Positions 35,787 through 53,642 of a DNA stretch of 64,000 bases are shown here, in pieces; the first letter of the stretch is position 1, and each line of letters starts with the position of its first letter. The stretch is from Helicobacteraceae bacterium (GTDB taxonomy: Bacteria; Campylobacterota; Campylobacteria; Campylobacterales; Sulfurimonadaceae). The stretch lies in assembly GCA_027038835.1 (NCBI GenBank), contig JALWGC010000003.1, positions 1 to 64,000 of the forward strand, read 5' to 3'. The notes beneath the pieces are model-generated. The model saw only the letters and a list, made by a program, of their open reading frames with translations, ran no database searches and was not told the DNA's origin. The translations under genes were made by a program, and so were the position numbers.

Positions 35787-38700
35787 ATGATGCAAAGGGT
35801 GTTTTTTATCATTTTGATTCTACTTTCGGTCAGTGCCGGCGCGTCTGCTAGATGTAACGGTTGCGACTGTAGTTTAGATACGCGAGCGAACGACAGTTCT
35901 CCCGGGGTCGCCATCCCGGAGTTGGATGGAGCGACGGATGATGTAACTAAATGTATAAGCGGGAGTTCAAGAAACGATGATAAGGATTATTATCATTTTA
36001 CGCTAGAGAGCGATGGGAAGTTGGAGATTACGACATCTTCTCCAAACGGTCATGACTATCATATGAAGATAAGATCGAATAAGCAGGGGACTTTGCTTAG
36101 CTACGATACCGCTCAAGATAGGTTGCTTTTTTATGATGTAACCGCCGGAGAGAAGATAACGGTTGAATTTGTAGAAACCGGAAGCGGTACGGATGAATAT
36201 GAAGCGACTTTCAAGTTCACGAAATCGGAATCGAGCGGGGGAGATTGTGGCGAATGTGATTGCACGTTGGATACGCCGGCGAACGACAGATCTCCTGGAG
36301 TCGCTATTCCGGAGTTGGATGGAGCGACAAGCGATGTAACGAAGTGTATAATCGGAAGTTCGGAGGACGACGATAAAGATTACTACCATTTTACCGTAGA
36401 AAAAGAGGGTAGACTCGATATCAATACATCTTCTCCAAATGGTCATGATTACCATATGGAAATCGTCTCAAGCGAGAATGGAACCTTATTGGAGTACGAT
36501 ACCGGTCAAAATAGAAATCTTTCCTATTACCTTTCCGAGGGTGAAAAGATAACGATTTTGTTGAAGGAAACCGGAGACGATTTGGATAAATATAAAATCG
36601 ATTTAAGTTTTACGACCGGTATTGTCATTGAAAATGCCGACGATCTTTGCTACGAAGAGAAAGAGTTGGAAGGAGTCTGTCAAGATATAGGTTTGTGTGG
36701 AGGGGGTCTTGGTTGTAAAACTATATACCCGATCAAAAATGTTGGAAGCGAAAATCTTTCAAGTGTAAAAATTGTTATTGAAGAGAGTGAACCGGGAGGA
36801 TCTTTGTTTAGCGATTGCGGTGTGGATCCTGAAGGAGCTGGAGAGTGTAGCAATCAAAGCGATCTCAATTTTGGACCAATTGGAGTGTTGGGGGGTGCGA
36901 CCGTTTACGATTTTAACAACGAGATAGCACCAAACGATAACAGTAACAAGTTTTGGTTTAAAACGAGGGTGTCGGGAAGCTGCTTTTCAAGCGAAGATAT
37001 CTATGCTAGTTATATCAAAAACGGCACTTCGCATCGAGGAAAGTTAAAACGATGCATCGTTGTCGGTAAAGGAAAGGACCGACCATTTAAGATCAGGAAT
37101 CCAGAGCCGACGCGTAATATAGTAGGGAACTATACGATAATAGGTAACAGCAACCAGTGTGCGTTGCATAGTACCAGAGTCACCCCCCCATGGACGGGAA
37201 AATGTTATCAGTCCTACAGCAACAAGCGTCCTTCACGTTATATAGATGTGGATGATGATGTTTCGACGAAAAACTCGACGACTTCCACTTTAAACATACC
37301 TAAAGGTTCTACCGTTGTTTGGGCAGGGCTTTACTGGCAAGGGGTAGTTCACAACTCTACGGTACGCGGTGACTTTATGGGAACATCAGGGCGAGCCAAT
37401 GGTGATACCATCAAGGGTGAGCCGCTGTTTAGTTCGGGTAGGCAAATCAATTTTGAAAAAGCCGGAAGTTCGTACGGTGCGGAGAAGGTTTTGTTCAAAC
37501 TTCCCGGAGGTACTTATACGGAAGTGACGGCGGATGTGTTTGATTATCATAACTTAGGGTATGCCGGGTTTAAGGATGTTACCGATATGTTGAATGCTTC
37601 CGACCCTAACGGTGTATATGCCGTAGCCGATATCAAGTCAAATCAAGGGGTTGAAGACAATCACGGAAATTATGCCGCGTGGTCGTTGGTGGTTATATAT
37701 AAAAACGCCAATGAAACATTTAAAAATATCAGTATTTTTGACGGTTATGCGACAGTCGATAGTCATTTTAACGAAGATCTTGTCGTTAAAGGTTTTTTAA
37801 CACCGAAAACGCCCCCAATCAATTCAAAGATCGCGATGTTCGCTACGGATGGTGACGACGACGAGAACTCTTTGACTGTCGTTTCGCAAAGAGGGAAAAG
37901 TACAAAAATAGAAAATCAAGATCACCCCGGGCATTATCTATTTGATTCGACCATTTCGAATTCGATAGTGCGCAATCCAAATACAACAAGCCTTCGTACC
38001 GATTTGAAAATTTTGGATCTAGTCGATGTTTTAGGACCTACTGAAACAGAAGCGATACTAAAGCCGCGTACCAATGGGGATCGATATACTCCATCCTTTT
38101 TTATTATGTCTGCAGATCTGCGAACCATTGATTTATGCTACGACTATACGTATGGACAAGGTGGTTTTTTTCAGACGGCGCCAAGTATCAAGCCTACAAA
38201 AATCGAAGGAACATTCGATAGTTCAAAACCGATCAATGTTAAATTCTATTTGAAAAATCAAGAGAATTCCGATGTTACGATCGAAAATCTAACTGTTAAT
38301 ATAGAAGATATTAATACTTCGCAAGCCACATATAAAAGAGATACGACTTATGTAACGGTACCGGGAAGCTCTGAACGAACTTTTGTAAAAGATAGTGGAA
38401 GAAAAATTTCGGATGAATACGATAAGGATATCCCCATAGGAGATGTTAATTCGATGGAATATTTCTATACCTATTTTAGTCTTGATCCAAAAAAACCGGA
38501 TATTGAATTCCCTTTACATATTACCTTTAAATATAATTTGATCGTTAAAATAGATAATGAAGTGCTTAGGCTTGATGATTCCAGTGTTAGTATAGAAAAT
38601 ATGAATCCATGCCAAGCAACCAATGGGTACAAGCCTGTACCGGGTCGTTTCAACGTCGTTCACCAAGCGTATAAAAATACCAACTTGAGTTCTGGATACT

Positions 38701-40889
38701 ACTACAACATCCCGACACAGGTCGTAAAAAGATATACCGATAATTTCGTCGTCGAGTCGATGAATCCAAACGACTTGAACGATACCGAGCCAATCAGTAC
38801 CGCCGTCGCGCTGGAGATGGTCGATATGGACGGATTCCACTACGTTACGGCAACTTGTACCGACGTTAACGCGACCGTTTTGAGTAAAAAAAGGTTGTGG
38901 GTGATTTTCGACTCCAACACCTCCGCGTTCAAGCCGCTTACCAAAACCGACTTGGAGCGTGCGGGATTTTTCGACAACGCATCGCGAAACGCTGCGTTTA
39001 GGCTCGCTTACAATGTCGCCGATGCTAACGACAGCGTCATACAGTTGTCGAAAAACGCGAGCGGCAAATACACTATGTTGAACTTTTCCAACTATGCCGG
39101 AGCGAACTGCGCGAGCAGTTTCGTCTCCAGTACCGGAAGCAGGGGTGGAAAGGTGTCTGATTATTGCGGAAGCGGTGCTGGAAAAAGCGGTAACGGTATG
39201 GACGCCAACGAGTTGCGCGAATGTATGGAGTGTATATTCAGTATCAATACGTTTAGAATGTGTTCAAGAGACAACTTCGCCATCCGCCCAGAGGCTTTCA
39301 AGCTGATGTTCTCGGATCAAAATCAAACCAACCCGTCGCAACTCATTTCGCTGGGCAACACAGCGACCAAACTCGATTTGGCATCGGGATACGACTACAA
39401 AGCCGAAGTGAACGCTACAAGCCATGTTGACGACAACGCGACTCCGGGTTACTACGGTGCGGGTTCTACCTTGACGCTTCAGTGGAACTCCACAAAACCG
39501 GCAGGAGCGTGTAACGACACCAACGATGTGGATGTCAATGTGAGTATTATAAACGGTAGAGGAACCGGAGATGTCGTTCTCAATCAGGTAGGGGAGTATA
39601 AATTGCACCTCGAAGATAAAGAATGGACGGCGGCGGATTGGAGATACCTCGCCCACCATAGCGGAAAATATTTCAAAAACGGTACGGATTGTATCGCCAA
39701 TTCCCACGCAGTCGCCAAAGCTTCCACTATGAAGAAAAACGGATGTGTCATCAGTAGTGAGCACAACAACTCCGAGTTTTCGGCATTGAAGTATTTCGAC
39801 TATACGATGGAATTCCACCCTTACAAGTTCGATATCTCTTCGATTGTCAGTTCAGTGGGGCTAGACGACAGTAACGTAACGACGAACGCTTTTGTTTACA
39901 ATGCGAACATGGATGAAAACGCAAGCGGGAACTACGACGATATCAACATGTCATACCACCTCTACGGTTCGGTAATCGCACAAGGGGAGAACAACGCCAC
40001 CTTGTCGAACTTCGTTTCGGGATGTTACGCTAAAGATATCAAAATAGTGCTCCCAAGAAGCGCTTATGCAGATACGAGCATGACTTTCAAAGGAAGCGTC
40101 GAAACGCTCGATGGAAGCAACAACCGCTTGACGATCGTCTTTGAAGATGTGAACAACTCCAAAGATTTCGTCGATGTTTCGAAAAACGCTTTTGCAAAAT
40201 CATTAAACGGAACTGCGAACGTGCGCATCCGCTACAACTTCAAACGTGATATCAACGAATCGAAAAATCCGCAGACTATCACGTTCAAAAAGTTGAGTGT
40301 CGGATGTAAAAACGCTGCCGAGTGCCGCACCAAAGCCGACTTGGGCGATCATGACGTAAATGCGAGTTCGTTTAAAGATATCAACGAAACGATCCGTTTT
40401 TATTACGCAAGAGCGTATGTGCCAGATAGTAAAATCATCGGTAACAGCGGTACGGTCAAGGGGTATTACGAGATTTACTGCTCCGGTAGCGGATGTAACA
40501 AAGCGCTACTACCTCAAGGTGCGGCGTCCAAAGGAAGCGATGACCCAAGATGGTGGATCAACGAGTCCCACACAAGCGGATACGGTAAAATGAAAGAGAT
40601 AAAACAAAAACGAACACCGGTTCATGTAACGTTAAACGGTGCTTCGCCAAGCGGAAACGCTACGGAGAATATTCCGCTTCTTTACGATGAACAAAGGGGG
40701 TATCCGTACAAAGCGACTATGAAGATTATACCGAACAGATGGCTGATATACAACAAATACAACGCAAACGCCGATCATAACGAGTTTGACGTCAAGTTCG
40801 AAGGCAACGGCGAATGGGCGGGTAAAAACTCCTCCAAAAGTGTTACAAACACTTTCAACGCAGATAAATCAAGGATTCTCCAATGGTAA
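35787..40889 (+). CDS. Giant secreted surface protein 1 of the pilus locus (1700 aa)
   Basis: Signal peptide at residues 1-22. Two tandem domains of about 120 residues (starting CNGCDCSLDT and CGECDCTLDT) resemble pre-peptidase C-terminal (PPC) domains and share YYHFT...SSPNGHDYHM. A Cys-rich domain begins at NADDLCYEE (about 283), and a domain with STVVWAGLYWQG (about 508) has a DUF3344-like look. From about residue 951 the tail is almost identical to that of the second giant protein. It contains DNFAIRPEAF and many Asn/Asp-rich strands, so it is probably beta-rich and cell-surface. I do not know its exact family. By context it resembles MshQ/PilY1-type pilus proteins. Its own pilin partner downstream is truncated. 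Confidence 0.8.
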   Translation: MMQRVFFIILILLSVSAGASARCNGCDCSLDTRANDSSPGVAIPELDGATDDVTKCISGSSRNDDKDYYHFTLESDGKLEITTSSPNGHDYHMKIRSNKQGTLLSYDTAQDRLLFYDVTAGEKITVEFVETGSGTDEYEATFKFTKSESSGGDCGECDCTLDTPANDRSPGVAIPELDGATSDVTKCIIGSSEDDDKDYYHFTVEKEGRLDINTSSPNGHDYHMEIVSSENGTLLEYDTGQNRNLSYYLSEGEKITILLKETGDDLDKYKIDLSFTTGIVIENADDLCYEEKELEGVCQDIGLCGGGLGCKTIYPIKNVGSENLSSVKIVIEESEPGGSLFSDCGVDPEGAGECSNQSDLNFGPIGVLGGATVYDFNNEIAPNDNSNKFWFKTRVSGSCFSSEDIYASYIKNGTSHRGKLKRCIVVGKGKDRPFKIRNPEPTRNIVGNYTIIGNSNQCALHSTRVTPPWTGKCYQSYSNKRPSRYIDVDDDVSTKNSTTSTLNIPKGSTVVWAGLYWQGVVHNSTVRGDFMGTSGRANGDTIKGEPLFSSGRQINFEKAGSSYGAEKVLFKLPGGTYTEVTADVFDYHNLGYAGFKDVTDMLNASDPNGVYAVADIKSNQGVEDNHGNYAAWSLVVIYKNANETFKNISIFDGYATVDSHFNEDLVVKGFLTPKTPPINSKIAMFATDGDDDENSLTVVSQRGKSTKIENQDHPGHYLFDSTISNSIVRNPNTTSLRTDLKILDLVDVLGPTETEAILKPRTNGDRYTPSFFIMSADLRTIDLCYDYTYGQGGFFQTAPSIKPTKIEGTFDSSKPINVKFYLKNQENSDVTIENLTVNIEDINTSQATYKRDTTYVTVPGSSERTFVKDSGRKISDEYDKDIPIGDVNSMEYFYTYFSLDPKKPDIEFPLHITFKYNLIVKIDNEVLRLDDSSVSIENMNPCQATNGYKPVPGRFNVVHQAYKNTNLSSGYYYNIPTQVVKRYTDNFVVESMNPNDLNDTEPISTAVALEMVDMDGFHYVTATCTDVNATVLSKKRLWVIFDSNTSAFKPLTKTDLERAGFFDNASRNAAFRLAYNVADANDSVIQLSKNASGKYTMLNFSNYAGANCASSFVSSTGSRGGKVSDYCGSGAGKSGNGMDANELRECMECIFSINTFRMCSRDNFAIRPEAFKLMFSDQNQTNPSQLISLGNTATKLDLASGYDYKAEVNATSHVDDNATPGYYGAGSTLTLQWNSTKPAGACNDTNDVDVNVSIINGRGTGDVVLNQVGEYKLHLEDKEWTAADWRYLAHHSGKYFKNGTDCIANSHAVAKASTMKKNGCVISSEHNNSEFSALKYFDYTMEFHPYKFDISSIVSSVGLDDSNVTTNAFVYNANMDENASGNYDDINMSYHLYGSVIAQGENNATLSNFVSGCYAKDIKIVLPRSAYADTSMTFKGSVETLDGSNNRLTIVFEDVNNSKDFVDVSKNAFAKSLNGTANVRIRYNFKRDINESKNPQTITFKKLSVGCKNAAECRTKADLGDHDVNASSFKDINETIRFYYARAYVPDSKIIGNSGTVKGYYEIYCSGSGCNKALLPQGAASKGSDDPRWWINESHTSGYGKMKEIKQKRTPVHVTLNGASPSGNATENIPLLYDEQRGYPYKATMKIIPNRWLIYNKYNANADHNEFDVKFEGNGEWAGKNSSKSVTNTFNADKSRILQW

Positions 40890-40929
40890 ATAGAAACGGG
40901 TTTTCGATGATAGAGCTGATATTCGCTAT
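38641..40929 (+). repeat. Long direct repeat, copy 1
   Basis: This 2289-base block is repeated at 44116-46404 without insertions or deletions (offset 5475). By eye I see a few mismatches before 38826, none from 38826 to 40842, a handful in 40843-40880, then identity again through the first 47 bases of the pilin frame. It covers the last ~750 codons of the giant gene. Weaker similarity extends to about 38601. Confidence 0.93.
40837..40855 (+). other. Hairpin near the 3' end of giant gene 1
   Basis: AAAGTGT and ACACTTT pair around TACAA, 28 bases before the pilin start. The second copy has the same hairpin at 46312-46330 with a C-G pair where this one has T-A. Confidence 0.4.
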
Positions 40930-40972
40930 AAGGAGCGATGTTGTTTTAAGTCGTGAAAAACATAAAAAGTGA
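40883..40972 (+). pseudogene. Truncated type IV pilin-like remnant
   Basis: The frame begins MVNRNGFSMIELIFAI, identical to the start of the complete minor-pilin gene at 46358, with the peptidase site and Glu5. Identity stops after 47 bases, in the middle of the membrane helix. It then continues for 13 unrelated residues (RSDVVLSREKHKK) to a TGA. A 29-residue product cannot be a pilin. It marks the right end of the duplicated segment. Confidence 0.85.
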
Positions 40973-41040
40973 GTAATAAGGGAAGAAAAGGTGCTATTAA
41001 TAGTTGTCTAAGGTCTTTTTTATATTTCTTTTATCTTAAG

Positions 41041-41050
41041 TATGCTATAT
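41041..41050 (+). promoter_or_regulatory. Promoter-like -10 region before the riboswitch
   Basis: TATGCTATAT lies in A/T-rich sequence about 15-20 bases before the conserved aptamer core. It would start transcription just 5' of the riboswitch, giving the second giant gene and the pilins a promoter separate from the first gene. Confidence 0.5.
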
Positions 41051-41065
41051 TTTGGAGAATTGTGT

Positions 41066-41143
41066 ATGGAGAAAAGCCAAACCTGTCGCGAGGCAGGGAC
41101 GGAAAGCCACGGGTCTCAAAGAGGCAGCCGGGCTGCCTATCAT
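41066..41143 (+). promoter_or_regulatory. Cyclic di-GMP-I (GEMM-I) riboswitch
   Basis: The aptamer core is clear: GCCAAACC (41076-41083), a stem CCTGTC/GGCAGG closed by a GCGA (GNRA) tetraloop (41088-41091), the invariant GGGACGGAAAGCC (41096-41108), a GTCTC/GAGGC hairpin (41113-41125), and the AGCCGGGCT strand with GCTGCC (41126-41137). Aligned to the V. cholerae Vc2 aptamer and to the Geobacter cGAMP aptamer from memory, the base at 41076 is the position-20 specificity base. It is G, as in c-di-GMP binders, not A as in cGAMP binders. The outer P1 helix is weak. It lies in the 5' leader of the second giant gene; the ORF that appears to run through it is not real there. Confidence 0.9.
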
Positions 41144-41190
41144 TTTGAACTCCCGCAAACGGTGTCTTTTCCCACTATACACGCCCATTT

Positions 41191-41216
41191 CACCCTTTTT
41201 TTCAGGGTACAAGGTG
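41191..41216 (+). promoter_or_regulatory. Possible expression platform: pairing over the ribosome site
   Basis: CACC (41191-41194) can pair with GGTG (41213-41216), which includes the AAGG ribosome site of the second giant gene; alternatively ACCC and GGGT form a small hairpin around a T7 run. This suggests translational control, but I cannot model the switch, and no classic terminator with a T-tract is obvious. Confidence 0.35.
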
Positions 41217-41222
41217 CTAAGC

Positions 41223-44200
41223 ATGGAAAACATAAAAACTATCTTTCGAATTGTAGGGTTGTTCTCTTTATTCACGTCGGTACTTTTTGCCGCAAGCTAT
41301 TCATGTCCGGGTGAAGATGTACTTCATATCGACGGTGCAATTGAAAGTACCGCTAAGTCTTACGATACTACAAGCAGATTTATACAAAATGGAGGGGGAC
41401 GTTATTGGAAGTTCGAAACTATGGTCGATGGAACCATAACGATTATGCAAAATACGTTAAAAAATGAACAAAACTACAGAAACCATCGGCTTTTAGTCGG
41501 AACCTCTTGTGGTGGTAGCGATATCTATCAGGGAAAAACATCGACAGCCGATTCGACGACTTTTCCTGTACAAAAAAATAAAACGTACTATGTAAAGATT
41601 GAAGAAAGAAACAATAGAAATCAATTGAATGTTCGTGTTTCATTCGTTTTTGCAAAACAAGGGGATAGCGGATGTAGCGGATGTGATTGTAAGTACGACA
41701 CGGGAAACAATGAAATTTTCAATGATACCTCTCCCGGTGTGAAAATAGCGGAGCTTAGTAATAAAACTACCAAAGAGCAAAAATGTTTCAGTGGTATATC
41801 GGTAAGCGGAAGTGGTCATAACGAGGATAATTTCTATTTTATCGCCGGTACCGATGGAAATGTAAGTGTCAATACTTCTTCTCCGAATATGCACGACTAT
41901 CATATGAAGGTAACAAGAGGCGGCACTGTTGTCTATGCAGATACGACAACAATCAACCATAGCGTACATTTCAAGGTTGCAAAAGGGGATAGAGTAGTTC
42001 TTTACTTCAAAGAAGCGGGAGACGATGCAGACAAATACGAAGCAACAGTAACCTTTGAACCATCCTCTTCCGGGATTATCGAAAATGCCGACGATATTTG
42101 TTACGAAGATATCGTTACGTCCGGAATGTGTATCGGGGCAGGACCGTGTGCCGGTGGTATGCAGTGTAAAAAAGCGTATCCGCTTAAAAATATCGGAGAC
42201 GGAGAGTTGAGCGATGTTACGATTTATTATGACGAAACTGGTTTGGGAGGGACTTTCGGTAAGAGTTGCGGAGTCGATCCATCCGGTACTTGTCAGACCA
42301 AAAGTAATATTGACCTTGGTCCCGTCGGTTTGCTTGGAAAAACCACGGAGTACGACATAACCAATCCTATGCCTATAGGAGACAATTCCACATCTATATG
42401 GTCTAAACCGTTTGCAAGCGGGAGTTGTTTCAACGGAAGCAACCTTTATGCGACCTATATAAAAAACGGTAAACGACATAGAGGGAAAGTGAAGCCTTGT
42501 AGTGTGGATTTTACCTGTGCGAACCCGAAAGATTACGATATCATATACCGAGGAAACGCACATAGTAAAATGATAATGGCGGGTAATACGAATTTGTGCA
42601 AAAGAAAAGGAAAGACAGGTCATGTTTGTCAAACGAATGTGAGCACAAGTACGACCAATAACAATATTTTCATGATCAATGACGATTACGACGACATTAT
42701 AGGCGAGGCGGACTATACCGCTACGCTACATAACTCCTCTGCGGCTTATGTAGATATACCGAAGGATAAAAAAGTCGTATGGGCTGGACTTTTCTGGCAG
42801 GGATATATGGCTGGGACGCTTACCGACGCAGACAAACGCAAAGGCAGAGAGATCAAATTCAAACAAGAGGGCGATACTTATCAAACATATACCGACGGTG
42901 ATATGCATTGGGTTTACATTACCGATAAAAGAATGTACTACCAAAGCTTTGTCAATGTTACAAAGTATGTCAAATCTCATGGTGGCGGTTACTACTGGGT
43001 TGGAGACATCGCTACATCCGAAGGTACACCTGAAGGAGGAAGCTATGGTGCATGGACGCTTGCGGTGGTATATGAAGATGACAACGAACCGTTTCGAAAC
43101 ACAACGATCTTTTACGGCTACAAAGGGTTGATGAAGGGGAAAGATGTTACAAACGCTAAAAGTTATGCTCGTGCGCATGGGTGCCCTAGTGATGACGATA
43201 GTATAGGAATCGCCAACAGCATAGAAGAAACGATTAGCGGATTTCTTACGCCAAAATCAGGCAACGTGGATGCTTCGCTTATCATATTTGCGGGGGAAGG
43301 TGATACATGGGCAAGCGGCGAGTATGGTTATATAACAGATAAGTATGCAAAGAGGCATAAGTTGACAAACGCAAAAAACCCCGATGGCAACATTATGAAC
43401 TCGACCATCACGAAAGATGGTAATTATGTAACAAACGGTAAGCCCCACTTCGGTAACAATAGTTTGGGAATCGATATCGATACGTACGATATGAGCGGAA
43501 AATTAAGCAACTATCAAACATCGACGAAAATTGGTCTTCAAACGGATGGCGATGGTTATTTCCCCGGTATGTTCGGATTTGAAGCGCAACTCAAAGAGAT
43601 GCGGCTCTGTTACGATTTTACATATGGTCAAAACGGTCATTTTCAAACAGCGCCGACAGTTAAACCCCCAAAAATCGAAGCGCAAGTTTCCAAGAATGAC
43701 TCGCTCGATGTCAAGATATATTTCAAAAACCTTGAAAAAGACAGCGATGTGATCGCAAAGAATATCACCGTCGATATCGATGATATCAACACGACACAAG
43801 CAACTTACAAACGTGATTCGACGTATGTAACGCGCCCTAATTCGGCGACGAGAATCGCAGTTCAAGATTCGGGAAGAAGGGTAGCTGACAAGTACGATAA
43901 AGATATACCCGTCGGTGATTTGGGAGGATTGGAGTATTTTTACACCTACTACAGTCTCGAGCCGAAAAAAAGCACTATCGATATGATGTTAAACGCTTTC
44001 TTACGTTACGATCTTGCGGTAAATATAGGTGGAACTACCGTTACGCTTCCGGGCGCACAGACATATATGAAAGACATGAATCCATGTCAGACAACCAATG
44101 CGTACAAGCCTGTACCGGGTCGTTTCAACGTCGTTCATCAAGCGTATAAAAATACCAACTTGAGTTCTGGATACTACTACAACATTCCGACACAGGTCGT

Positions 44201-46364
44201 GAAAAGATATACCGATAATTTCGTCGTCGAGTCGATGAATCCAAACGATTTGAACACTACCAAGCCAATCAGTACCGCCGTCGCGCTGGAGATGGTGGAG
44301 ATGGACGGATTCCACTACGTTACGGCAACTTGTACCGACGTTAACGCGACCGTTTTGAGTAAAAAAAGGTTGTGGGTGATTTTCGACTCCAACACCTCCG
44401 CGTTCAAGCCGCTTACCAAAACCGACTTGGAGCGTGCGGGATTTTTCGACAACGCATCGCGAAACGCTGCGTTTAGGCTCGCTTACAATGTCGCCGATGC
44501 TAACGACAGCGTCATACAGTTGTCGAAAAACGCGAGCGGCAAATACACTATGTTGAACTTTTCCAACTATGCCGGAGCGAACTGCGCGAGCAGTTTCGTC
44601 TCCAGTACCGGAAGCAGGGGTGGAAAGGTGTCTGATTATTGCGGAAGCGGTGCTGGAAAAAGCGGTAACGGTATGGACGCCAACGAGTTGCGCGAATGTA
44701 TGGAGTGTATATTCAGTATCAATACGTTTAGAATGTGTTCAAGAGACAACTTCGCCATCCGCCCAGAGGCTTTCAAGCTGATGTTCTCGGATCAAAATCA
44801 AACCAACCCGTCGCAACTCATTTCGCTGGGCAACACAGCGACCAAACTCGATTTGGCATCGGGATACGACTACAAAGCCGAAGTGAACGCTACAAGCCAT
44901 GTTGACGACAACGCGACTCCGGGTTACTACGGTGCGGGTTCTACCTTGACGCTTCAGTGGAACTCCACAAAACCGGCAGGAGCGTGTAACGACACCAACG
45001 ATGTGGATGTCAATGTGAGTATTATAAACGGTAGAGGAACCGGAGATGTCGTTCTCAATCAGGTAGGGGAGTATAAATTGCACCTCGAAGATAAAGAATG
45101 GACGGCGGCGGATTGGAGATACCTCGCCCACCATAGCGGAAAATATTTCAAAAACGGTACGGATTGTATCGCCAATTCCCACGCAGTCGCCAAAGCTTCC
45201 ACTATGAAGAAAAACGGATGTGTCATCAGTAGTGAGCACAACAACTCCGAGTTTTCGGCATTGAAGTATTTCGACTATACGATGGAATTCCACCCTTACA
45301 AGTTCGATATCTCTTCGATTGTCAGTTCAGTGGGGCTAGACGACAGTAACGTAACGACGAACGCTTTTGTTTACAATGCGAACATGGATGAAAACGCAAG
45401 CGGGAACTACGACGATATCAACATGTCATACCACCTCTACGGTTCGGTAATCGCACAAGGGGAGAACAACGCCACCTTGTCGAACTTCGTTTCGGGATGT
45501 TACGCTAAAGATATCAAAATAGTGCTCCCAAGAAGCGCTTATGCAGATACGAGCATGACTTTCAAAGGAAGCGTCGAAACGCTCGATGGAAGCAACAACC
45601 GCTTGACGATCGTCTTTGAAGATGTGAACAACTCCAAAGATTTCGTCGATGTTTCGAAAAACGCTTTTGCAAAATCATTAAACGGAACTGCGAACGTGCG
45701 CATCCGCTACAACTTCAAACGTGATATCAACGAATCGAAAAATCCGCAGACTATCACGTTCAAAAAGTTGAGTGTCGGATGTAAAAACGCTGCCGAGTGC
45801 CGCACCAAAGCCGACTTGGGCGATCATGACGTAAATGCGAGTTCGTTTAAAGATATCAACGAAACGATCCGTTTTTATTACGCAAGAGCGTATGTGCCAG
45901 ATAGTAAAATCATCGGTAACAGCGGTACGGTCAAGGGGTATTACGAGATTTACTGCTCCGGTAGCGGATGTAACAAAGCGCTACTACCTCAAGGTGCGGC
46001 GTCCAAAGGAAGCGATGACCCAAGATGGTGGATCAACGAGTCCCACACAAGCGGATACGGTAAAATGAAAGAGATAAAACAAAAACGAACACCGGTTCAT
46101 GTAACGTTAAACGGTGCTTCGCCAAGCGGAAACGCTACGGAGAATATTCCGCTTCTTTACGATGAACAAAGGGGGTATCCGTACAAAGCGACTATGAAGA
46201 TTATACCGAACAGATGGCTGATATACAACAAATACAACGCAAACGCCGATCATAACGAGTTTGACGTCAAGTTCGAAGGCAACGGCGAATGGGCGGGTAA
46301 AAACTCCTCCAAAAGTGCTACAGGCACTTCGAACGCAGATAAATCAAGGATTCTTAAATGGTAA
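41223..46364 (+). CDS. Giant secreted surface protein 2 (1713 aa), riboswitch-controlled
   Basis: Start set at ATG 41223, preceded by AAGG, because it gives a proper signal peptide (MENIKTIFRIVGLFSLFTSVLFA); the open frame continues upstream through the riboswitch. Domains: a unique N-terminal PPC-like domain (about 25-142), a second PPC-like domain from CSGCDCKYDT, a Cys-rich domain at NADDICYED, a DUF3344-like part with VVWAGLFWQG, a linker and the constant tail from about residue 965. Head domains are homologous to the first giant protein but well diverged, while the tail is nearly identical. The stop overlaps the pilin start by seven bases. Probably a surface or pilus-tip adhesin made when c-di-GMP changes. 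Confidence 0.82.
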   Translation: MENIKTIFRIVGLFSLFTSVLFAASYSCPGEDVLHIDGAIESTAKSYDTTSRFIQNGGGRYWKFETMVDGTITIMQNTLKNEQNYRNHRLLVGTSCGGSDIYQGKTSTADSTTFPVQKNKTYYVKIEERNNRNQLNVRVSFVFAKQGDSGCSGCDCKYDTGNNEIFNDTSPGVKIAELSNKTTKEQKCFSGISVSGSGHNEDNFYFIAGTDGNVSVNTSSPNMHDYHMKVTRGGTVVYADTTTINHSVHFKVAKGDRVVLYFKEAGDDADKYEATVTFEPSSSGIIENADDICYEDIVTSGMCIGAGPCAGGMQCKKAYPLKNIGDGELSDVTIYYDETGLGGTFGKSCGVDPSGTCQTKSNIDLGPVGLLGKTTEYDITNPMPIGDNSTSIWSKPFASGSCFNGSNLYATYIKNGKRHRGKVKPCSVDFTCANPKDYDIIYRGNAHSKMIMAGNTNLCKRKGKTGHVCQTNVSTSTTNNNIFMINDDYDDIIGEADYTATLHNSSAAYVDIPKDKKVVWAGLFWQGYMAGTLTDADKRKGREIKFKQEGDTYQTYTDGDMHWVYITDKRMYYQSFVNVTKYVKSHGGGYYWVGDIATSEGTPEGGSYGAWTLAVVYEDDNEPFRNTTIFYGYKGLMKGKDVTNAKSYARAHGCPSDDDSIGIANSIEETISGFLTPKSGNVDASLIIFAGEGDTWASGEYGYITDKYAKRHKLTNAKNPDGNIMNSTITKDGNYVTNGKPHFGNNSLGIDIDTYDMSGKLSNYQTSTKIGLQTDGDGYFPGMFGFEAQLKEMRLCYDFTYGQNGHFQTAPTVKPPKIEAQVSKNDSLDVKIYFKNLEKDSDVIAKNITVDIDDINTTQATYKRDSTYVTRPNSATRIAVQDSGRRVADKYDKDIPVGDLGGLEYFYTYYSLEPKKSTIDMMLNAFLRYDLAVNIGGTTVTLPGAQTYMKDMNPCQTTNAYKPVPGRFNVVHQAYKNTNLSSGYYYNIPTQVVKRYTDNFVVESMNPNDLNTTKPISTAVALEMVEMDGFHYVTATCTDVNATVLSKKRLWVIFDSNTSAFKPLTKTDLERAGFFDNASRNAAFRLAYNVADANDSVIQLSKNASGKYTMLNFSNYAGANCASSFVSSTGSRGGKVSDYCGSGAGKSGNGMDANELRECMECIFSINTFRMCSRDNFAIRPEAFKLMFSDQNQTNPSQLISLGNTATKLDLASGYDYKAEVNATSHVDDNATPGYYGAGSTLTLQWNSTKPAGACNDTNDVDVNVSIINGRGTGDVVLNQVGEYKLHLEDKEWTAADWRYLAHHSGKYFKNGTDCIANSHAVAKASTMKKNGCVISSEHNNSEFSALKYFDYTMEFHPYKFDISSIVSSVGLDDSNVTTNAFVYNANMDENASGNYDDINMSYHLYGSVIAQGENNATLSNFVSGCYAKDIKIVLPRSAYADTSMTFKGSVETLDGSNNRLTIVFEDVNNSKDFVDVSKNAFAKSLNGTANVRIRYNFKRDINESKNPQTITFKKLSVGCKNAAECRTKADLGDHDVNASSFKDINETIRFYYARAYVPDSKIIGNSGTVKGYYEIYCSGSGCNKALLPQGAASKGSDDPRWWINESHTSGYGKMKEIKQKRTPVHVTLNGASPSGNATENIPLLYDEQRGYPYKATMKIIPNRWLIYNKYNANADHNEFDVKFEGNGEWAGKNSSKSATGTSNADKSRILKW

Positions 46365-46404
46365 ATAGAAACGGGTTTTCGATGATAGAGCTGATATTCG
46401 CTAT
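44116..46404 (+). repeat. Long direct repeat, copy 2
   Basis: Second copy of the 2289-base repeat described at 38641-40929, at a constant offset of 5475. After 46404 the sequence continues into the intact pilin gene, while copy 1 breaks off. Confidence 0.93.
46312..46330 (+). other. Hairpin near the 3' end of giant gene 2
   Basis: AAGTGC pairs with GCACTT around TACAG, the counterpart of the hairpin at 40837-40855, with a compensated base pair. It lies just before the start of the first minor-pilin gene. Confidence 0.4.
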
Positions 46405-46771
46405 CGTGGTGATATCGATAGGGGTTTTGTCGCTGCCGATGATGAGCGAGGTAACTTCCAACGCATCGGCTAGCACGATGAAAACAGAAGAGGCGGTGTT
46501 CGAAGCGTATGTAAAGGCGCTTGAAGTGACCGATGCCGGATACGACGACTTAAACGGTACCGGCGGCTATGTGAACGTAGCTTCACTTGCAAGTGACAAG
46601 TCGCAAGGATTGAAGTTAGGTACACAGATGAAAGCGACGGTTCAAAGAGGTGTCGCTTTTTTACAAGGTGGCGCGGCGGATAACAATATAGCGCTCGTTA
46701 CCGTCGAGGTCAAAGATGCCGACGGGCTCATAGCACGTTTATACACGTACGATTTTAACGTGAGTAGGTAA
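46358..46771 (+). CDS. Type IV minor pilin / pseudopilin, PilV-MshD-like
   Basis: 137 residues. MVNRNG is the leader; cleavage before FSMIELIFAIVVISIGVLSLP leaves Phe1 and Glu5 and a hydrophobic helix, the hallmark of class III signal peptides processed by PilD. The globular part is short, with no Cys pair. Its ATG lies inside the end of giant gene 2 (ATGGTAA), so translation is coupled. It is the first of three consecutive pilin genes, as in the minor-pilin clusters of type IV and MSHA pili. Confidence 0.87.
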   Translation: MVNRNGFSMIELIFAIVVISIGVLSLPMMSEVTSNASASTMKTEEAVFEAYVKALEVTDAGYDDLNGTGGYVNVASLASDKSQGLKLGTQMKATVQRGVAFLQGGAADNNIALVTVEVKDADGLIARLYTYDFNVSR

Positions 46772-46773
46772 TT

Positions 46774-47736
46774 ATGAAACTGCGAAGAGATGGATTTACC
46801 CTTTTGGAATTGGTTTTTGTTATTGTCGTGTTGGCGATAATATCGAAATTCGGTGTCGAGTTTTTGGCGCAGGCTTATAGAAACTACCTCGACCAAGAAG
46901 TAACGAGCAGACTTGCCAATACAAGTTCGAGTGCCGTGGAGTATATAGCCAAGAAGCTCCAATACCGCATACGAAGCTCGGTGATAGTGCGAAAAGATTT
47001 GAGTGATTACAAAGCGCTCGAGGGGTTCAATCTAACAGGTGCGAATGCCGAAGAGTACAAAACGCTTGAGTGGATAGGGTACGACATAGAAGGTTTTAGA
47101 GGAGCTGGAGACGGTGAGCCGTACTGGAGTGGCGTAATCGATAAAAAAGCCTCTTTGGACAGTAACACGTACATCTTCACTAAAGGAAGCAATCTCAACA
47201 AAGTCAATCTTTTGATTAAAAAGCTTTCATACAACCACTCTACTATCGACGATGCCGCTATTTACATTTTTTCCGCACAAAACGACATATACAAAAGTTT
47301 CGGATGGTACGGAGGGGAGAAAATAAAAGACCAAACGCTCGAGTACGCTATGCATCCGGTTAAAGAACAAAACACTACGGCATTCGCTCCGGGGCCGGAT
47401 TCAGATGGCAACCCGACAACCTTTAGCGACCTTTTTACCGATGTCAAAGATAGAGGGGAATGGGACGCTCGCTACTACCTCGCTTGGACGGCGTATGCGG
47501 TCAAACTCGATGCGGCTACGAAAAAGTTGATACTCTATTACGATTTTCAACCGTGGCAAGGGGAGAAATATACCGACGGGAAACAGCAAACACTTATGGA
47601 GAACGTCAATACGTTCAAAATGATTCAAAAACAAGGAATTATAAAAATTCAGGTGTGTACGACAAGCGACGTAAACGGAACTGGAAAACTCGATATAGGT
47701 GGATTCGCGCTATGCAAAGAAAAAACTATTTACTAA
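46774..47736 (+). CDS. Type IV minor pilin / pseudopilin, PilW-MshO-like
   Basis: 320 residues, long for a pilin. Leader MKLRRDG, then FTLLELVFVIVVLAIISKFGV with Glu5. The large C-terminal part is polar and ends with CTTSDVNGTGKLDIGGFALCKE, a Cys pair likely to form a disulfide. Size and position (second, after the PilV-like gene) fit PilW/MshO. It starts two bases after the previous stop and overlaps the next gene by 25 bases. Confidence 0.85.
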   Translation: MKLRRDGFTLLELVFVIVVLAIISKFGVEFLAQAYRNYLDQEVTSRLANTSSSAVEYIAKKLQYRIRSSVIVRKDLSDYKALEGFNLTGANAEEYKTLEWIGYDIEGFRGAGDGEPYWSGVIDKKASLDSNTYIFTKGSNLNKVNLLIKKLSYNHSTIDDAAIYIFSAQNDIYKSFGWYGGEKIKDQTLEYAMHPVKEQNTTAFAPGPDSDGNPTTFSDLFTDVKDRGEWDARYYLAWTAYAVKLDAATKKLILYYDFQPWQGEKYTDGKQQTLMENVNTFKMIQKQGIIKIQVCTTSDVNGTGKLDIGGFALCKEKTIY

Positions 47737-48209
47737 AAAAAGGCTCCAAAAGAGGCGGTTTCGCCTTGGTCATGGCGGTAGCGTTGTTAGTGATTTTGGC
47801 GACCATTATGGCGTTTTCGATTCAGATGACGGCGAAATCGCAAAAAAGAGCGGTCGATATTTACGTAGAAAACCAAGCTATACTCTATGCCAAAAACGTA
47901 GCGGAATATTTCGTCTATAAAATCAGCCAAGACAAAAACTGTACGACACAGAAAAATTTCGACATCAACATCAACCAAAGCCCGAAATATCATGCGAAAG
48001 TGAAGCTTTTTTATATCGTTTCCGATATGGACAACACCCATTACTGTAAACAGCAAAGTGATCTGAACCTGACTGCCGGGCATGATGAAGACCCGTACGC
48101 TTACGTGCGTATCGACGTTACGATGGATGTGAGTGACGGCAACATCACTTCGGAGCCTATCAGGATTTTTCGACGCTATGTGGAGGATATCACCCCGTTT
48201 GTGTATTGA
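47712..48209 (+). CDS. Type IV minor pilin / pseudopilin, PilX-GspK-like (no Glu5)
   Basis: 165 residues from ATG 47712, with AGGTGG eight bases before it; the longer frame is a shadow of the previous gene. A basic leader MQRKNYLLKKGSKRGG precedes FALVMAVALLVILATIMAF. Position 5 is Met, not Glu, as in GspK and other tip pilins. A Cys pair (NCTTQ and HYCKQQ) may form a disulfide. The gene closes the riboswitch-controlled operon. Confidence 0.85.
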   Translation: MQRKNYLLKKGSKRGGFALVMAVALLVILATIMAFSIQMTAKSQKRAVDIYVENQAILYAKNVAEYFVYKISQDKNCTTQKNFDININQSPKYHAKVKLFYIVSDMDNTHYCKQQSDLNLTAGHDEDPYAYVRIDVTMDVSDGNITSEPIRIFRRYVEDITPFVY

Positions 48210-52583: not shown

Positions 52584-53642
52584 ATGAATTTTTTTTATAC
52601 TAGACATTTTATCTTTACCGTGGTGTTCGTTTCGCTGTGTATAGCGTATGGACTTTTTTCGTTCTATCAGATGACAAAAGAGGAGATAGACGCCGTAACG
52701 ATGGCTTCGAGAGTTTTTTTGGCGTTTGTCTTTTCTATTATAGCGATTTTCGTATATGTAGGCAACTCCCTTTATCTTCAAAAAGAGTACTACGGAAGCA
52801 TCATCGACAACAGTAACAATATCGTCGTTATTACCGACGGGGAAAAGTTGCTTGAAGTGAATAAAATCTTCCTCGAGCGGTTCGGTTTCAAAGATGTCCA
52901 AGAGTTCTCTGCGCGAAAGAACTTCCGTTTGACCGATTATTTTGTCGAGGAAGAGGGGTATTTGCATATCGAGGAAAACGGTATGCTTTGGTTTTACTAT
53001 GCTTTGAACTATCCCGAAAAACGGCTCAAAGTGAAGATGAACATCGACGGTAAAGTTTACTATTTCATTCTCAATACGTATCCGGTAAAAGCGCCGAAGA
53101 AACTCTACAGTATAGTTCTTTCAGATATAACCGACGAGGAGAACTACCGTCTCGAGCTTGAAGAGAGTGTCTTGACCGATGCGCTTACTAGAGTGAGAAA
53201 CAGACGCTATTTCGATGAGAAGATTCAAGAAGAGGTGTTTTTTGCACAGAGGTATCAGCGCCCTTTTTCTTTGGTTTTGCTCGACTTGGACTACTTCAAA
53301 GATATCAACGATAAGCACGGGCACGACATAGGGGACAAAGTACTTGTGTGGTTTAGCCAAACGGTACAGAAGGAGATTCGCAAGCCCGATGTGTTTTGTC
53401 GTATAGACGGGGAGGAATTTGCTATTATATTGCCTGAAACAAGACTCAACAACGCCGTGCGGTTCGCGAAGAAAATCAACAAGATAGTCAAAAGAGAAGA
53501 GGGATGTTTCGTGGAAGTTTCCGTTAGCTTGGGAGTGGTCGAATACACCAGAGGGGAAAGCGAAAAAGATATTTTCAAACGGGCGGAAAACGCTTTGTAC
53601 AAAGCGAAAATTTCAGGGAAAGACAAAGTCGTTATCGGATGA
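52584..53642 (+). CDS. Membrane-anchored diguanylate cyclase (PAS-like + GGDEF)
   Basis: 352 residues. Two membrane helices (about 8-27 and 42-60), a PAS-like domain (about 68-185: IIDNSNNIVVITDGEKLLEVN, ending IVLSDITDEENY), then a GGDEF domain (about 190-350) with TDALTRVRNRRYFDE and LLDLDYFKDIND. The catalytic signature reads DGEEF rather than GG[D/E]EF. Five residues before it, RKPD matches the RxxD inhibitory site, a feature of active cyclases. It makes c-di-GMP, the ligand of the riboswitch at 41066. It overlaps bioF by four bases. Confidence 0.9.
   Translation: MNFFYTRHFIFTVVFVSLCIAYGLFSFYQMTKEEIDAVTMASRVFLAFVFSIIAIFVYVGNSLYLQKEYYGSIIDNSNNIVVITDGEKLLEVNKIFLERFGFKDVQEFSARKNFRLTDYFVEEEGYLHIEENGMLWFYYALNYPEKRLKVKMNIDGKVYYFILNTYPVKAPKKLYSIVLSDITDEENYRLELEESVLTDALTRVRNRRYFDEKIQEEVFFAQRYQRPFSLVLLDLDYFKDINDKHGHDIGDKVLVWFSQTVQKEIRKPDVFCRIDGEEFAIILPETRLNNAVRFAKKINKIVKREEGCFVEVSVSLGVVEYTRGESEKDIFKRAENALYKAKISGKDKVVIG

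Follow-up and report, generated by a model that had tools for sequence, protein, structure and literature searches.

The window, that is, the whole 64-kb stretch of DNA analysed, carries on its forward strand a riboswitch aptamer followed by the gene for a giant secreted protein and three genes for minor pilins:

41067–41141, + strand: c-di-GMP-I riboswitch aptamer, matched by the Rfam models RF03167 and RF01051
41223–46364, + strand: giant secreted protein copy 2 (1713 aa), an ORF with an ATG start downstream of the riboswitch
46358–46771, + strand: PilV-like minor pilin (GFSMIELIFAI; N_methyl PF07963, 24.5 bits; TIGR02523 PilV, E 3e-5, under its cut-off)
46774–47736, + strand: PilW-like minor pilin (GFTLLELVFVI; N_methyl PF07963, 22 bits, and position)
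47712–48209, + strand: PilX-like minor pilin (GGFALVMAVALLVILATIMAF; 165 aa), called from its sequence, the choice of start and an equivalent gene in orthologous operons

This is the layout that the first-pass annotation had described, namely the leader of a 1713-residue secreted protein followed by three minor pilins, and it stands with one refinement: the best start of the third pilin gene is 47712, within the ORF listed from 47460. The 1713-residue protein had no match in Pfam or NCBIfam, and a profile built from 23 giant homologues found no relative in the PDB. PilY1 (PF05567) was not matched in the giant protein, nor in 31 relatives in a search whose positive control also gave no match, so its absence is not claimed. 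Structure prediction for the C-terminal half (the window copies and a Sulfuricurvum homologue, L052; three rows) reached a pLDDT of 28.7, too low for use. Of 151 genomes of the host family, 122 encode a homologue, and a search of the phylum from a related query reached 57 of 396 genomes at E<1e-20; the protein is a member of a phylum-wide, unnamed family. Its relatives share a conserved C-terminal half and carry varied N-terminal modules (PPC, Ig, cadherin, DUF11 and Calx-beta). In classical type IV pili, PilV/PilW/PilX minor-pilin genes accompany PilY1 (PMC8833165, PMC5979040), and a giant gene lies side by side with PilV/W/X-like minor pilins in the window, in L186, in L187 and in other loci. 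We therefore read the giant protein as occupying the PilY1 position and, from gene position, as a predicted PilY1-like pilus-tip adhesin. The host genome also holds five matches to PilB/PilT-type ATPases (PF00437). A GGDEF-domain protein is encoded a few genes beyond the pilins (52584–53642, + strand; PF00990, E 1e-40 at 53172–53624).

Comparison of the window with all Rfam families (cmscan) gave two matches, one of which is c-di-GMP-I-GGC (RF03167) at 41067–41141 on the + strand, scoring 67.7 bits (gathering cut-off 59; E 7e-14). The c-di-GMP-I model RF01051 scored 64.2 bits at 41066–41140, above the Rfam cut-off of 35. This result bears out the earlier claim of a full GEMM-I aptamer with its GNRA tetraloop, read as GCGA at 41088–41091, and its conserved core; the aptamer alignment likewise upholds the reading of the specificity base, 41076, as a G of the c-di-GMP type. 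In the numbering of the crystal structures, the Rfam alignments place the pocket bases, all of c-di-GMP type, at G20 (41076), A47 (41103) and C92 (41136). Pair 21–46 is C41077–G41102, whereas the Vc2 reference aptamer has G21–C46; on the aligned bases, this is a compensatory flip that preserves pairing. By these sequence features, the window aptamer is of the c-di-GMP-I class. The second Rfam match in the window is the 'purD motif' RF01069 (16429–16562, − strand; 72.4 bits); the purD-motif region in Campylobacterota has been reported as a 6S RNA homologue (PMC3847290).

Around the aptamer, the leader contains the following elements:

41042–41051, + strand: extended −10-like promoter element, TGcTATATT at 41043–41051 as read by eye
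41062–41076, + strand: 5′ strand GUGUAUGGAGAAAAG, common to the aptamer (P1 5′ side, J1 and G20) and to an alternative helix, from duplex energy and leader comparison
41166–41182, + strand: putative anti-aptamer element CUUUUCCCACUAUACAC, complementary to 41062–41076 in a duplex test
41192–41208, + strand: hairpin ACCCU-UUUUUUC-AGGGU, just 5′ of the Shine-Dalgarno, supported by a hairpin in orthologous leaders
41211–41216, + strand: Shine-Dalgarno AAGGUG, with AAAGGUG at the equivalent place in four of five orthologous leaders

The riboswitch had been credited with its own promoter-like sequence, and this claim holds in part: in addition to the extended −10 element read by eye, the promoter block TTTTATATnnnTTTTATCTTnnnTATGnTATATTT is 71–78% identical to three riboswitch leaders (L186, L187 and the host's own contig C2), but a sigma-70 consensus scan of the window gave nothing above chance at 41042–41051. 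The 5′ strand and its downstream complement form a duplex of −14.6 kcal/mol, with a descriptive p of 0.006 against dinucleotide shuffles of the downstream element; this and the other p values for leader features were calculated after the features had been noticed. On the 5′ side of the aptamer, the segment GTGTATGGAGAAAAG is identical in the window, L186 and L265 and reads TTGTATGGAGAAAAG in L187. Across six alignable orthologous leaders, an element complementary to the 5′ strand lies downstream of the aptamer with a combined descriptive p of 0.003, the alternative pairing being individually below 0.05 in only two of the six (window and L186). Among six leaders of the host genome itself it is significant in two, the window leader giving p 0.10 in that comparison, which used a longer downstream stretch. 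All six orthologous leaders also have a hairpin a few nucleotides 5′ of the Shine-Dalgarno, its sequence differing from leader to leader (descriptive Fisher combined p 6e-6).

RNAalifold on the orthologous leaders recovered the aptamer stems along with a long 5′-strand helix. In the riboswitch leader L031/L214, the 5′ strand differs (GACAAGAU) and the complementary downstream element differs accordingly (AUCUUGUC; p 0.01), which supports a model of competition for the 5′ strand. Such competition is the likely switch, as judged from these pairings. Another candidate for the switch, a terminator-like stem of 7 bp within reach of the aptamer sequence (41122–41138, overlapping it), was set aside because the orthologous leaders do not conserve it.

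We regard it as very probable that the leader of this giant-protein/minor-pilin operon holds a true c-di-GMP-I riboswitch, one that acts through the proposed 5′-strand competition. Transcription would begin near 41058, the start we infer for this leader. In the absence of ligand, 41062–41076 would pair with 41166–41182, leaving the pocket unable to form; c-di-GMP, bound by G20, A47 and C92, would retain the 5′ strand within the aptamer and release the downstream element, and this release would alter expression of the giant protein and the PilV/W/X-like pilins. Given a well-formed aptamer before the operon and a pairing that recurs in relatives, attachment is probably switched directly by RNA.

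As to direction, we lean modestly towards raised c-di-GMP turning the operon ON, which better fits attachment biology. The opposite sign, in which c-di-GMP would free the CU-rich element to cover the Shine-Dalgarno, is a realistic though less favoured outcome, and as a sub-question it is compatible with the riboswitch reading. Two-state folding with the aptamer enforced masks the Shine-Dalgarno in the bound state of the sister leaders on contigs C5, C11 and C16, and the 5′ strand of the C5 leader (GGAGAAAAAG) mimics its Shine-Dalgarno (GGAGAAAAA). Such masking is not seen in the window leader (C3), where, as in C14a, C14b and C2, Shine-Dalgarno exposure changes little, and adhesion genes are usually raised by c-di-GMP. 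Because the change in exposure is not uniform across leaders, we claim no sign of control from folding.

Upstream of the riboswitch lies a second giant gene, related to the first by a tandem duplication:

35787–40889, + strand: giant protein copy 1 (1700 aa), its leader without a riboswitch (no Rfam match upstream), orthologous to the lone giant gene of a same-genus genome
38591–40929, + strand: direct repeat copy A, spanning the 3′ half of giant gene 1 and running ~45 nt into the start of the pilin gene (99.0% identity)
40883–40972, + strand: truncated pilin stub (MVNRNGFSMIELIFAI, then out-of-family sequence), read from the sequence
44064–46404, + strand: direct repeat copy B, 99.0% identical to copy A over 2341 bp

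The two giant genes have divergent 5′ halves and 3′ portions of 2341 bp that are 99.0% identical. The N-terminal half of copy 1 is closest (52%) to the protein of L183, a single copy at the same position in a same-genus genome, and that of copy 2 is closest (47%) to riboswitch-less proteins from other genera of the host family. Transfer of the whole giant gene with its leader from Sulfurovaceae was considered and is unsupported, given this affinity of the copy 2 N-terminal half to same-family, riboswitch-less proteins. Same-genus relatives with a readable locus (L166 and L183) have a single giant gene and no riboswitch. Since the duplication ended copy 1 in a pilin stub, the only intact minor pilins at the locus sit behind the riboswitch. 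In layout, the minor pilins have been rewired to the riboswitch-led giant gene; their regulation would have been altered with it. The tandem repeat may be an assembly error. A crossover between the repeats, within 35787–46404, would remove the riboswitch and give the single-gene layout of the relatives.

The duplication bears on an explanation that we consider unlikely, in which the aptamer is real and its regulation has been lost through duplication or transfer, or the operon is driven by read-through from giant copy 1. The recent, chimeric nature of the duplication is compatible with such a loss, as are the 3′ part of the leader, only 50–54% identical to its orthologues, and the absence from the window leader of a hairpin that lies just 3′ of the aptamer in four orthologues. 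However, the aptamer core, the start codon and the Shine-Dalgarno are intact, the 5′-strand pairing is strongest in the window (the p of 0.006 above), and the junction of the duplication, which separates giant copy 1 from the riboswitch promoter, has a terminator-like hairpin (40923–40938). The aptamer itself is 91% identical to those of L186 and L265, which precede giant operons in another family, 85% to that of L187 and 73% to that of the host's own contig C2. An origin by copying from a sister riboswitch was rejected with respect to C2, the one sister compared, on the difference between 73% and the 91% shared with L186 and L265.

The host genome (1.97 Mb, 19 contigs) contains seven c-di-GMP-I riboswitch copies including that of the window, hence six more, with the following downstream genes:

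Contig C3 (window): giant protein
Contig C2 (L015, 7396–16684): MtrC/MtrF-like multihaem lipoprotein, then DUF2202, DUF1800 and DUF1501 genes
Contigs C5 and C16: collagen-repeat proteins with lipoprotein-like starts
Contig C11: lipoprotein with discoidin and metallophosphatase domains
Contig C14: a DUF1800/DUF1501 pair behind one riboswitch and a GGGGG lipoprotein behind another

The downstream lipoproteins would be exposed at the outer surface, and control of extracellular electron transfer by c-di-GMP through the C2 cytochrome operon is possible. Another same-genus genome (L338) has a riboswitch upstream, at a distance, of genes resembling the C2 operon. The same host genome encodes 30 GGDEF and 16 EAL domains. 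The GGDEF signature was readable in 18 of the 30, all of which carry the Asp typical of diguanylate cyclases; Ser-type (Hypr) GGDEF domains were absent among these 18, the other 12 falling outside the pattern read.

These enzymes are relevant to a further alternative, slightly less probable still, in which the aptamer senses 3′,3′-cGAMP or is a variant with altered ligand. In its favour, the variant-aptamer model RF03167 scores above RF01051, and the G21–C46 pair is reversed to C–G. The flip nevertheless preserves a base pair, base 20 is G whereas cGAMP (GEMM-Ib) riboswitches carry A20, and no Hypr domain appeared among the readable GGDEF signatures. At position 47, where the RF03167 consensus has G (the central base of GGC), every one of the seven aptamers of the host genome has A, so that despite the better score the window aptamer is not read as GGC-type. 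Over 90 distinct Campylobacterales aptamers, three of them out of register in the alignment and placed by eye, G20 and A47 are constant (90/90), pair 21–46 is nearly always C–G and pair 22–45 alternates between C–G and U–A. Coincidental similarity to a compact RNA motif, for which nothing but small motif size speaks, is already refuted by the score (E 7e-14 in the window) and by recurrence, with seven similar cores in one genome and a conserved operon context.

Beyond the host, 75 of 399 genomes sampled from the order Campylobacterales have RF01051, as do 19 of 87 genera, with up to ten riboswitches per genome among the matches listed. A pattern scan of GTDB for the C21–G46 type returned at least 113 loci, including some in Desulfobacterota and Methylococcaceae, and the subtype is therefore not confined to Campylobacterota. 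Among 81 riboswitch loci from the order, eight are immediately followed by the gene for a protein of >900 aa accompanied by pilin genes, and in 14 a lipoprotein gene comes next. The order riboswitch–giant gene–pilins recurs in L186, L187, L207, L210, L243, L263, L265 and L276, the large protein of L276 having no detectable similarity to that of the window; a Sulfuricurvum MAG (L052 = L329) has the riboswitch and a giant homologue on a contig that stops before the pilin position. The pairing of riboswitch and giant gene is nonetheless patchy among relatives. Most giant homologues have no riboswitch in the locus examined (19 of the 19 closest in the family and 18 of 19 loci of the phylum set, some of which may miss the leader), and no riboswitch was found at L343, whose giant homologue shares 69% identity with that of L265. 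Other contexts were also observed: in L335 (G416:C1:1936800-1949000), two tandem aptamer pairs ~160 nt apart each precede a related lipoprotein-like gene; in Sulfurovum-type genomes, many riboswitches (L211, L214, L223, L224, L232 and L267) precede a gene with a PilJ-like N-terminus followed by one for a protein of ~1000–1070 aa; and a further set (L225 and L238–L240) lies before PAS-domain (Aer-like) proteins.

A 2013 transcriptome paper on this group reported TPP as the sole metabolite riboswitch of C. jejuni and cited a prediction that related bacteria lack them (PMC3847290). Other branches of Campylobacterales commonly carry c-di-GMP riboswitches (the 75 of 399 genomes above). A search of openly available papers found no earlier report of a c-di-GMP riboswitch in Campylobacterota; as far as that literature shows, their occurrence in this phylum, their multi-copy use and the tip-protein/minor-pilin target are new. 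If they are functional, these riboswitches would connect c-di-GMP to attachment directly through RNA in bacteria of the sulfur-oxidiser type, with extracellular electron transfer as a possible further output, and would supply a named set of candidate targets on which the many GGDEF proteins of such genomes could act. We tentatively advance a broader hypothesis, which we hold to be rather doubtful as a whole: that in sulfur-oxidising Campylobacterota a multi-copy riboswitch regulon is a main c-di-GMP output, with surface lipoproteins, a multihaem cytochrome of the outer-membrane type and the tip complex of the type IV pilus adjusted together, and that the duplication moved the host's minor pilins from an unregulated giant gene to one under riboswitch control, in a manner reversible through the 2.3-kb near-identical repeats.

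Set against known systems, the riboswitch class itself is already known, and so is a c-di-GMP riboswitch that governs type IV pili, in Clostridioides difficile. With c-di-GMP-I (GEMM-I, RF01051), the window aptamer shares the architecture, the GNRA loop, the G20/A47/C92 pocket and a score above the cut-off; it differs from the Vc2 reference of that class in C21–G46 and in a very short P1. To c-di-GMP-I-GGC (RF03167), its best-scoring model, for which the literature searched yielded no tested ligand, it is alike in general sequence, but like its six sisters it has A rather than the consensus G at position 47. In Clostridioides difficile, the target of the c-di-GMP-II riboswitch is the major pilin operon. 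Type IV pili of that species are described as being under this riboswitch by Bordeleau et al. 2015 (cited in PMC13234629), and the likeness lies in the route from second messenger through riboswitch to type IV pilus genes; the riboswitch class and the phylum are unrelated, and the target in the window is a predicted tip protein with minor pilins. The fimU-pilVWX-pilY1 operons (PMC8833165, PMC5979040) have, as in the window, the gene for a large secreted protein beside PilV/W/X-like pilins, whereas the giant-protein family combines variable N-terminal modules (PPC, Ig, cadherin or DUF11) with a conserved C-terminal half and has no PDB relative by profile.
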